This document shows, piece after piece, positions 31,831 through 34,602 of a stretch of 34,664 bases of DNA (position 1 is its first letter; every line of letters starts with the position of its first letter). The DNA comes from Pirellulales bacterium (lineage in GTDB: Bacteria > Planctomycetota > Planctomycetia > Pirellulales > JADZDJ01): positions 1-34,664 of the forward strand of contig DASRSD010000172.1 in assembly GCA_035656635.1 (NCBI GenBank). Reading direction: 5' to 3'. The notes under the pieces were generated by a model. That model saw only the letters and a list, made by a program, of their open reading frames with translations, was not told the DNA's origin and ran no database searches. Position numbers and translations under genes: made by a program.

Positions 31831-34602
31831 ATGGCCCTACGTTTCGATAAATTCACCATCAAAGCCCAAGAAGCCGTGCAACGCGCCCAGGAATTGGCCG
31901 CCGATCATGGCAATCCGCAGATCGATCCGTTGCACCTGTTGGCTTCGCTGCTGGCCGAAAAAGATGGCATCGTCAAGCCGCTGCTCGATAAAATCGGCGT
32001 CAACCGCGCCCAGCTCGATCGCATTGCCGAGTCCGAATTGAGCCATCTGCCCAAGCAAAGCGGGCACGTCGGCCAGCCGGGAATCAGCACCGAGCTGAAC
32101 AACGTTTTTGAAGCGGCTCAGCGCGAGGCCGGCACCATGAAGGACGATTTCGTCTCCACGGAGCATCTCCTGCTGGCACTGGCCAAGATCGATTCCAAAG
32201 CCAAAAACGTTCTGAAGCTGAACGCAATCACCGAAAAAGAGCTCCTCACAGCCATGCAAACCGTCCGCGGCTCTGCGCGCGTAACCGACGTGGTTCCCGA
32301 GGCTAAATTTCAGGCGCTACAAAAATACGGCATCGATCTGGTGGAGCGCGCCCGCCAGGGGAAGCTCGATCCGGTGATCGGGCGCGATCAAGAAATTCGC
32401 CGTGTCATTCAGGTGCTTTCTCGACGCACAAAAAACAATCCCGTGCTCATCGGCGAGCCCGGCGTCGGCAAAACCGCCATTGCCGAAGGACTGGCTCTGC
32501 GCATTGTTCAAGGCGATGTGCCCGACAGTTTGAAAAACAAGCGCGTGATAGCGCTCGATTTAGGCGCACTCATCGCCGGCGCGAAATATCGGGGCGAGTT
32601 TGAAGACCGCCTGAAAGCCGTGCTGCGCGAAGTGGAATCGGCCGCCGGCAATGTGATTTTGTTCATCGACGAGCTGCACACCATGATTGGCGCCGGCGCC
32701 GCCGAAGGCGCCACCGATGCCGCCAATTTGCTCAAGCCGGCCCTGGCCCGCGGCGAGCTGCGTTGCATTGGCGCCACTACGCTGGACGAATATCGCAAGC
32801 ACATCGAAAAAGATGCCGCCCTGGAACGCCGCTTCCAGCCCGTATACGTGGGCGAGCCGACGGTGGACGACACCATCGCCATTTTGCGCGGCCTCAAGCC
32901 CCGCTACGAAGCGCATCACAATGTGAAAATCAAAGATTCCGCGCTGGTCGCCGCGGCTAAGCTCTCGCACCGCTACATTACCGACCGCTTTCTGCCCGAC
33001 AAAGCCATCGACCTGGTGGACGAAGCCGCCAGCCGCCTGGCCATGGAGCTGGAAAGCGTGCCGGGAGAAATCGATCAAATTCAGCGCCGCATCACGCAGC
33101 TGGAACTGGCCGATCGCCAACTGGCCGAGGAAACCGAAGAGCACGCCGTGGAGCGCCGCGCCGAAATCCAGGAGGAAATCCAAAAGCTCCGCCAGCAACT
33201 CGCCAGCCTTCGCGAGCAATGGGAAGCCGAAAAGCTCGGCCTGGGCGACGTGCAGCAAACCCGCAAGCGGCTGGATGCGGTGGAGCACGAAATCAGCCAG
33301 CTCAACACGCAAATCAAGGAAAACCAATCCGCCGGCATGCCGGTAAGCGAGGAGCTGTATCAAAAACTCTTCACGCTCGACAAAGAGCGCAAGGCACTGG
33401 AGAAAAAAGTCGAGGCCTCCGGCACCGATAAAGAAAAAGCCGACGCCGACCAGTCCAATTATAAAGCCGCGACCGGTGGTCGCGCGGAATCATCCGACGG
33501 CAAATCATCTTCTCCCTCGCCCCTCGCGGGAGAGGGCCGGGGTGAGGGGGCCAAGACCAAGCGCCGCCTGCTGCGCCAGGAAGTCGGCCCCGACGAAATT
33601 GCCGAAGTCATTTCCGCGTGGACCGGCATTCCCGTCAACCGCATGTTGGAAACCGAGCGCGCCAAACTGCTGGTGCTGGAAGATCGTCTCCATCAGCGCG
33701 TCATCGGGCAAGACGAAGCCGTCACCGCCGTGGCCGATGCTGTGCGCCGCAGCCGCAGCGGTTTGCAAGATCCGCATCGCCCCATCGGCAGCTTCATTTT
33801 CCTGGGCCCCACGGGCGTGGGCAAAACCGAGCTGTGCAAGGCCCTGGCCGAAGTGCTGTTCGATGACGAGCACGCCATGGTTCGGCTGGACATGTCCGAA
33901 TTCATGGAAAAGCACACCGTCAGCCGCCTCATCGGCGCGCCGCCGGGCTACATCGGTTACGAGGAAGGGGGCATGCTCACCGAAGCCGTCCGCCGCCGCC
34001 CGTACTGCGTGATCTTGCTTGATGAAATCGAAAAAGCCCACCGCGACGTGTTCAATATCCTGCTGCAAGTTCTCGACGACGGCCGCCTGAGCGACAGCCA
34101 CGGCCACACCGTCGATTTCACCAACACTATTGTGGTTATGACCAGCAACGTCGGCAGCCAGGTGATTCAGGAAATTGCCAAGGAAGGGGGCAGCGAGGAA
34201 GACATGCGCACGGCAGTGAAAGAAACCATGGCCACGCGCTTCCTGCCGGAATTTTTGAACCGCATCGACGAAACGATTATTTTCCATCAGCTGGAGAGAA
34301 AACAGATTCGCAAAATTGTCGACATCCAAATTCAGCATCTACGCCACCAACTGGAGCAGACCGGATTGCAACTCGACATCACCGATCGGGCGTTAAACCA
34401 AATCGCCCACGAAGGCTACGACCCCGCCTACGGCGCCAGACCTTTGAAGCGAGTGATCCAACAGCGCGTCGTGAACCCCCTTTCCCGCGAGTTGTTAAAG
34501 GGCGAATTCCCCGCCGGCGCCACGGTGCACATCGACTTCGTGGACGATGAGTTTACGTTTTCGCGGAGTGATGAGGCGAAACGGGAGCGAGTTTCAATAT
34601 AA
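31831..34602 (+). CDS. clpB: ClpB disaggregase with an in-frame repeat-derived insert
   Basis: A 923-residue AAA+ hexameric disaggregase that rescues aggregated proteins with DnaK. Residues 1-150 are the double Clp-N domain; NBD1 has Walker A GEPGVGKT (208-215, K214) and Walker B ILFIDE (about 276-281); a coiled-coil M domain covers about 400-535; and NBD2 has GPTGVGKT (659-666, K665) and [11 protein letters not shown]. Most ClpBs are about 850-870 residues. The excess here is mainly a ~45-residue insert (about 531-575) between the M domain and NBD2. Its YKAATGGRA (544-552) is a direct translation of the window's palindromic repeat, and the Ser/Pro/Gly-rich [13 protein letters not shown] after it is a second repeat type. 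The final TAA stop lies in another copy of the palindrome. All catalytic motifs are intact. Confidence 0.96.
33460..33485 (+). repeat. Copy of the GCGACC/GGTCGC palindromic repeat inside clpB
   Basis: TATAAAGCCGCGACC with loop GGT and GGTCGCGC, read in the one of three frames that gives YKAATGGRA rather than the stop. Confidence 0.95.
33511..33550 (+). repeat. CCCTCGCCCC...GGGGTGAGGG hairpin repeat inside clpB
   Basis: A GC-rich imperfect hairpin, CCCTCGCCCCTC facing GAGGG and GGGGTGAGGGG, of a type widely scattered in planctomycete and other bacterial spacers, here translated as [13 protein letters not shown]. Confidence 0.8.

Follow-up and report, generated by a model that had tools for sequence, protein, structure and literature searches.

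The clpB gene of this Pirellulales bacterium raises the question of how two short palindromes, each a member of a dispersed repeat family, came to be part of the protein sequence of a core chaperone. The gene lies in the window (by which we mean the whole stretch of 34,664 nucleotides analysed), and the genome of the window, here G000, comprises 4.90 Mb in 190 contigs and is 95.6 percent complete. The product scores 1282.8 bits against the NCBIfam ClpB model TIGR03346, above the curated cut-off of 1232.1, which places it among the ClpB proteins. The original prediction, made from the sequence alone, was that a palindrome found elsewhere in the window is read here as YKAATGGRA, that a second repeat type follows shortly after and adds 13 residues, and that the reading frame stays unbroken. 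Each of these points is borne out. The frame of 923 amino acids has no internal stop; the first repeat (repeat A, TATAAAGCCGCGACCGGTGGTCGCGC) encodes residues 544-552, and its 26 nt recur exactly at the 3' end of the same gene, with further copies in the window; the second (repeat B, CTCCCTCGCCCCTCGCGGGAGAGGGCCGGGGTGAGGGG) is read within residues 561-573 and belongs to a dispersed family of its own. In clpB, B matches the 21-nt core of that family without a mismatch and a 33-nt B pattern with 1. The two repeats are unrelated to each other. By sequence, the 3'-terminal A copy supplies the gene with its stop codon, at a coding score of 0.194 that falls short of the threshold of 0.2; the clpB of a congener (G001) ends on its own TGA and has no repeat at its end.

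Both repeats had been placed at the junction of the M-domain and NBD2, and here alignment and an AlphaFold2 model agree: the insert lies past the last M-domain helix and ahead of NBD2. In the two best PDB matches the alignment is interrupted from chain residue 490 to 522, opposite residues 492 and 575 of this protein. In the model (m7a180f850354, mean pLDDT 82.3) the last M-domain helix spans residues 507-548 and the first NBD2 helix begins at 587, with a predicted disordered linker covering the repeats (Table 1). The site is a tolerant linker, because it is naturally variable in length among ClpBs, as the earlier suggestion that this spot would accept a linker implied. We compared ClpBs across 57 genomes, own included, and parsed 28 of 30 loci (L068 and L069 left out). 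Over the columns of residues 520-576 the linker measures 57 residues in G000, 38 in G001, 25 in G002 (another genus of the same family) and 16-34 in the other 25, so that the 26 aligned ClpBs without repeats have 16-34 residues against 57. In a second, independent set, 33 ClpBs drawn from public genomes, the same region spans 13-33 residues (median 16), against 60 in G000; of the 80 loci found, 45 were not taken, and L092 and L101 were left out because the matched part contained a stop. An equally long, unrelated insert, which would have spoken against capture, was thus found in neither set of repeat-free ClpBs. At the RNA level, the single-strand fold of the clpB A copy has -11.7 kcal/mol, and the hairpins are weak against shuffles (z of -1.30 for A and -0.89 for B); therefore we make no claim for an RNA element. 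Rfam gave no match in window positions 31000-34664.

Table 1. The clpB gene, its repeats and the copies of repeat A in the window (mismatches are to the 25-nt A pattern).
Feature	Position	Strand	Basis or remark
clpB, ATP-dependent disaggregase	31831..34602	+	open frame; TIGR03346 above cut-off; PDB ClpB matches
ClpB residues 538-577, predicted disordered M-domain/NBD2 linker	33442..33561	+	AlphaFold2 model, pLDDT <50
Repeat A (AAAGCC-tagged, REP-like), in frame	33460..33485	+	7-nt arms 33468-33474 / 33478-33484, loop 33475-33477
Repeat B (GGGTGAGGG-type palindrome), in frame, residues 561-573	33512..33549 (about)	+	dispersed family; not in same-genus ClpB
Second A copy, 3' end of clpB	34598..34623	+	clpB stops at the TAA (34600-34602) of its TATAAAG
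A copy, 3 mismatches, intergenic	1437..1461	+	inverted pair with 1492-1516
A copy, exact, intergenic	1492..1516	-	
Degenerate A copy, 3 mismatches	3799..3823	-	
A-pattern match, 6 mismatches	7481	-	probably chance
A copy, 2 mismatches	21669..21693	+	
A copy, exact	23578..23602	+	inverted pair with 23639-23663
A copy, 2 mismatches in head	23639..23663	-	
A copy, 1 mismatch	27850..27874	+	

That the two inserts are copies of dispersed repeats is clear from the families to which they belong. With up to 6 mismatches, the 25-nt A pattern has nine further places in the window, of which seven are convincing, one is degenerate and one is probably due to chance. In the whole of G000 the 19-nt A core, with one loop base left free, has 57 exact matches, rising to 72 when 1 mismatch is allowed, against 0 for a reversed-pattern control; at 2 mismatches the count of 81 against a control of 12 is partly chance and was left unused. 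At up to 1 mismatch there are 72 copies in G000, 64 in G001, 0 in G002, 8 in G014 and 0-2 in the rest of the 57 genomes. The consensus of 136 copies, TATAAAGCCGCGACCGTTGGTCGCGCTG, consists of a conserved head ATAAAGC and a 7-bp stem CGCGACC/GGTCGCG closed by a 3-nt loop, and nothing is conserved outside the unit of 26-28 nt. In 14 of 107 testable copies, a frame scored as coding ends at the TAA of A. Repeat B, with a unit of about 36-42 nt, was searched by its 21-nt core (two free bases), which gave 18 exact matches in G000, 31 with at most 1 mismatch and 38 with at most 2 (control 0). The genome-wide search that had been proposed as a check therefore leaves both repeats standing, at 72 and 38 copies with controls of 0. 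The window also contains another dispersed repeat, of AACCGCAGAG..CGCAGAG type, with direct and inverted copies at 25282-25310, 27914-27942 and 28076-28104.

One could suppose that the linker is merely hypervariable and that its likeness to the repeats arose by chance or convergence in G+C-rich sequence. Its length does vary between 16 and 34 residues in repeat-free relatives, but variability of this kind does not produce the same 26 nt exactly at 34598, nor families with 72 copies of A, and likewise many of B, where controls have none, nor identical nucleotide repeats in unrelated genes whose homologues have empty sites. Chance and convergence are ruled out by the nucleotide-level identity to dispersed families, the copy number and the controls, and we give a merely hypervariable linker next to no credence.

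The two families differ in their spread. Palindromes with an AAAGC head, a 7-bp stem and a 3-nt loop number 70 in 379 kb of G000 loci, with stems CGCGACC (55), CGGCGAT (7), CGGGCAT (6) and others (2), and 61 across 333 kb of loci from G001, where control heads gave 0 or 1 in these searches; the loci overlap and were largely fetched for holding such repeats, and the counts do not give a genome density. In G021, from another family of the order, there are 69 copies of the type AAAGCC-GCCGAT-GGY-ATCGGC (stem CGCCGAT/ATCGGCG) or near it. Repeat B, which also occurs in other phyla, matches 28 of the 57 order genomes searched, with the own one counted and a control of 0. Among 72,556 plasmid records, 90 contain it, at 249 places in all (E up to 0.01). 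On the Sphingomonas plasmid NZ_CP155755.1 (L431:585-1840) it lies in frame in a dihydrolipoamide acetyltransferase gene and is read in the same way as in ClpB, TPSPLVGEGRGEG; after it, the same gene has a second B-like stretch in another frame.

Comparison with the nearest relatives gives the order of events in clpB. In the nucleotide alignment the ClpB gene of G002 has neither repeat, that of G001, the only other genus member searched (ClpB 93 percent identical), has A plus the adjoining downstream sequence HKAATAGRAESPDGK and no B, and that of G000 has both. This series shows that A inserted first, in an ancestor common to the two sampled species of the genus, and B later, in this lineage only. 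The A cores of the two clpBs differ only in a loop base, and for this reason we pass no judgement on purifying selection. It might be objected that the repeats were misjoined into clpB during assembly or binning, since G000 is a draft of 190 contigs (G001, also a draft, has 240), repeats are a known cause of misassembly and B in clpB is seen in a single assembly. Against this, A occupies the same clpB site in G001 with that genome's own substitutions in the flanks, both repeats lie in the interior of a single contig, where the gene runs on unbroken to the left and to the right of them, and several B insertions in other genes are common to the two genomes. We consider such an artefact very improbable. 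The claim that non-coding palindromes were captured in frame is thus supported by the series of empty, A, and A plus B genes, and also by the same process in many other genes.

To follow capture beyond clpB, coding was scored separately on each side of an element with a codon model trained on G000 loci, for 72 copies of A and 30 of B from G000, and for 64 of A and 12 of B from G001 (the B copies with at most 1 mismatch being covered to 30 of 31 and 12 of 54, respectively). Coding signal on both sides and on one strand was found for 44 of these 178 copies in the two congeners, and 39 of the 44 keep the same frame free of stops (11 A and 14 B in G000, 6 A and 8 B in G001). The frame differs in four of the other five and one has a stop inside; at least one of the four, at 1492 of the window, is intergenic between close genes. 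The remaining copies were not coding on both sides (130) or too near an end (4). Against an expectation of 1/3, 39 of 44 gives p = 3.8e-14, a value that ignores copies shared by descent, and may reflect selection against insertions that break the frame. The coding threshold was 0.15, and because 5 percent of wrong frames of window genes scored above 0.23, borderline single cases may err. These counts replace an earlier, looser list of 48 candidates (A 14/72 and B 15/30 in G000; A 11/64 and B 8/12 in G001).

The captured genes are of many kinds. Among the candidates of the looser list Pfam recognised class I tRNA synthetases, phosphoglycerate kinase, DNA polymerase III delta, CbiX, radical SAM, AICARFT/IMPCHase (PurH), PrmC, XdhC, UvrA, acyl-CoA dehydrogenase, glycine dehydrogenase, a UvrD-type helicase and a P-type ATPase (in-frame examples being ValRS, PGK, HolA, UvrA, PurH and GcvPB), and gave no match for 3 of the 35 candidate proteins scanned (L226, L224 and L298). 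Homologous sites in G001 and G002 were compared for 24 of 29 G000 candidates, the two in clpB being handled separately and L017, L231 and the first site of L234 left out. At 20 of the 24 sites the repeat is absent from that place in at least one homologue, although for four of these (L007, L013, L034 and L044) the homologues may be paralogues. At the other four sites the sole homologue also carries a repeat, the same one in L242 and L226; B lies in opposite orientations in an M56 peptidase gene of G000 and its homologue (L030), and a PD40 beta-propeller protein (L050) has B in G000 and A in G001 at one place. A clean case is L051, a DUF4147/MOFRL protein that we take to belong to the glycerate kinase family, where a 42-nt B insertion faces an empty site in both relatives. 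B is common to both congeners and absent from G002 in a glycine dehydrogenase subunit (L059) and an acyl-CoA dehydrogenase (L055). A tRNA synthetase gene, named ValRS because the homologous region in G001 (C87, L269) carries a Val_tRNA-synt_C domain, was hit at two sites: its N-terminal part on contig C168 (L060) has a C-type palindrome in both congeners and B only in G000, and the second site (L248) has A plus a B-like stretch in G000, B in G002 and nothing in G001. At several A sites, among them those in PGK and in one radical SAM protein, the pattern resembles replacement within a variable loop more than a clean insertion. In a glycosyltransferase of G001 (L366, compared with L058) the B insert is longer, as if duplicated or hit again. 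Outside the genus, with rows scored by the G000 codon model, 2 of 33 B rows are in frame, 2 are broken or otherwise, 28 are not coding on both sides and 1 is too short, and 0 of 7 A rows from G014 are in frame; since the copies sampled there mostly lie outside coding sequence, heavy capture may be peculiar to this genus.

The reading frames of the captured copies bear on whether the inserts do anything for their hosts. Inside genes, 13 of 17 A copies are read in the (Y/H)KAAT(G/V)GRA frame (p = 8.6e-7 against 1/5, with the two clpB copies taken as one event), a skew that could stem from a phase preference or from selection favouring a soft peptide. Repeat B uses all five open frames (8, 7, 3, 3 and 1 of 22). 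The idea that ClpB retained the inserts for an improvement or a regulatory role, through M-domain motion or DnaK docking, can call on the retention of A in two species and on this preferred frame, whose peptide is small, flexible and hydrophilic. The same peptides, however, stand in unrelated enzymes, B is read in every open frame, and the predicted disorder of the linker fits a passive insert just as well. Tolerance explains all these points, and we regard a functional role as unlikely.

How A moves is suggested by the genes that it accompanies. Y1-type transposase matches number 13 in G000 and 6 in G001. One RAYT-like gene, on contig C36 of G000 (L321/L413), has A on both flanks, as the cognate gene of a REP does. 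Its relative on contig C178 of G000 (L427, 60 percent identical to the query) is bracketed by palindromes of stem CGGGCAT plus one C-like copy, that of G001 (L412) by stem CGCCGAT, and one from another order (L414, 49 percent identical) by AAAGCC palindromes of yet another stem. Among 15 more distant loci, seven (L416, L417, L420, L423, L428, L429 and, on one side only, L430) have palindromes headed by TTAGCC, TATAGCC or the like repeated next to the gene, and eight have none. The group is present in 15 of 198 genomes of the class (E up to 1e-10). Two histidines of an HxH motif (H96, H98) and Y155 are invariant in the four aligned RAYT-like proteins, giving the HUH signature and C-terminal tyrosine of such enzymes. 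Their best NCBIfam match is NF047646 (REP-associated tyrosine transposase) at 35-38 bits, below the cut-off of 80, and for this reason we name them RAYT-like; Pfam Y1_Tnp scores are 22.6-28.7 against 23. Repeat A itself, a palindrome within the 20-40 nt of REPs and in many copies (72, control 0), behaves, to judge from its sequence and setting, like a REP with its own tag. No B was found within 1.5 kb of the 19 Y1 loci of G000 and G001, and B is therefore not filed as a REP.

Several other Y1 genes were seen. A Y1 fragment of IS200/RAYT type (profile positions 4-37) lies at 123-224 on the minus strand of the window, about 1.2 kb from the A pair at 1437/1492. In G000:C120 (L317) a Y1 domain occurs in a 1413-aa open frame, with motifs NHVH and YVIEGQ that resemble class 3 as given in the available part of PMC6006769. 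Y1 transposase genes lie near clpB in three genera (G001:C73:4727-5056, G021:C36:58020-58364 and G033:C57:291148-291483). The first of these (L311) was considered as a cognate gene and rejected, being of IS200 type (NF033573, 65.9 against 55 bits); the A pair found 270-390 bp upstream of this gene could lie there by chance.

The palindromes could also have spread by recombination or gene conversion rather than by a RAYT. This would suit the occurrence of A and B at the same place in different relatives, and the lack of a B-flanked Y1 gene among the 19 Y1 loci of the two congeners. On the other side, A copies are alike only within their unit of 26-28 nt, and four related RAYT-like genes are each bracketed by palindromes of one stem type. 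We find recombination a doubtful account, if one to be taken more seriously than the others. Based on the evidence as a whole, the reading that we prefer, at a probability of roughly 0.87, is that two mobile palindromes inserted successively in the clpB linker, that A is a REP probably copied by a RAYT, and that copies in genes were kept where they were tolerated. A, which entered clpB ahead of the species split, was probably copied as single-stranded DNA by a cognate HUH/Y1 protein of RAYT-like type, whose A-flanked gene lies on another contig; B followed beside it. With the frame kept and no stop introduced, both would be translated as an extra disordered loop, apparently at no great harm to the chaperone. 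Many copies lie outside genes, and those inside would survive where a short flexible insert is tolerated and the frame is kept; as survival is confined to such sites, the same permissive linkers would be hit again.

This system has clear relatives in other bacteria. Repeat A resembles REPs in being a short palindrome with a conserved 5' tag, in forming inverted pairs, in having a palindrome-flanked cognate HUH/Y1 gene whose stem type varies with the gene, in supplying stop codons and in having some intragenic copies. The REP superfamilies are tagged GTAG/GTGG or CGTC, unlike the AAAGCC of A, and the host here is a planctomycete, in line with its nearest named ClpB relatives. According to the text of PMC3733652 available, GTAG and CGTC REPs occur within genes of O. 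terrae (a verrucomicrobium), R. conorii and others, among them uvrA, UvrD/Rep helicase and tRNA synthetase genes; single genes can have double insertions, different REPs occupy about the same recB site in two Xanthomonas, GTAG REPs supply stop codons to genes, and Planctomycetes are named as carriers of GTAG/CGTC REPs. A stepwise order of insertion was not met in that part of the paper, whose intragenic REPs are of the GTAG and CGTC families, and ClpB is not named in its main text. For TnpA-Y1 class 3 of planctomycetes, the part of PMC6006769 consulted gives NHVH, YV[VI][AENY]EQ and a CnGA foot, in contrast to THxH, YIERHN and AAAGCC here, and the RAYT-like motifs are unlike those of the subclasses compared, which are part of its table. 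The original prediction likened capture in principle to the Rickettsia palindromic elements, and the likeness holds, in that palindromes lie in frame in many unrelated genes. By description, those elements are about 150 bp long, with 44 integrations in R. conorii genes (PMC10969869, as far as available), against 26-28 nt for A, which is REP-like and has a RAYT-like gene, and about 36-42 nt for B. The further claim that such capture is undescribed for planctomycetes stands in part: no case was found, and yet REP capture by genes is in print for other bacteria in the available part of PMC3733652. In the open-access literature, searched without the letters of the tag, we found no repeats inside planctomycete proteins, no AAAGCC tag, no ClpB repeats and nothing closer than PMC3733652. 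REP capture by genes is thus already known, while the AAAGCC tag, the RAYT group and stepwise stacking in ClpB were not found in print, as far as these partly available sources go.

In conclusion, these findings suggest a REP-RAYT system whose tag is new. We lean, with some reserve, towards the broader view that the AAAGCC palindromes and the RAYT-like proteins with THxH and YIERHN motifs form an undescribed planctomycete REP-RAYT superfamily, which together with the cross-phylum repeat B carries out a continuing, genome-wide natural linker insertion, in which permissive loops of core proteins (ClpB, ValRS, the PD40 propeller, the M56 peptidase) are hit repeatedly and the proteins stay in service. 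The empty, one-repeat and two-repeat clpB genes document, step by step, how mobile DNA that did not code was taken into the protein sequence of a core chaperone, in a genus where capture can be counted across dozens of coding regions. The captured genes also offer a natural map of insertion-tolerant loops in ClpB, aminoacyl-tRNA synthetases, PGK, UvrA and others, and peptides in predicted proteins such as PSPQPSPxxGEG can be read as repeat captures rather than as conserved motifs.
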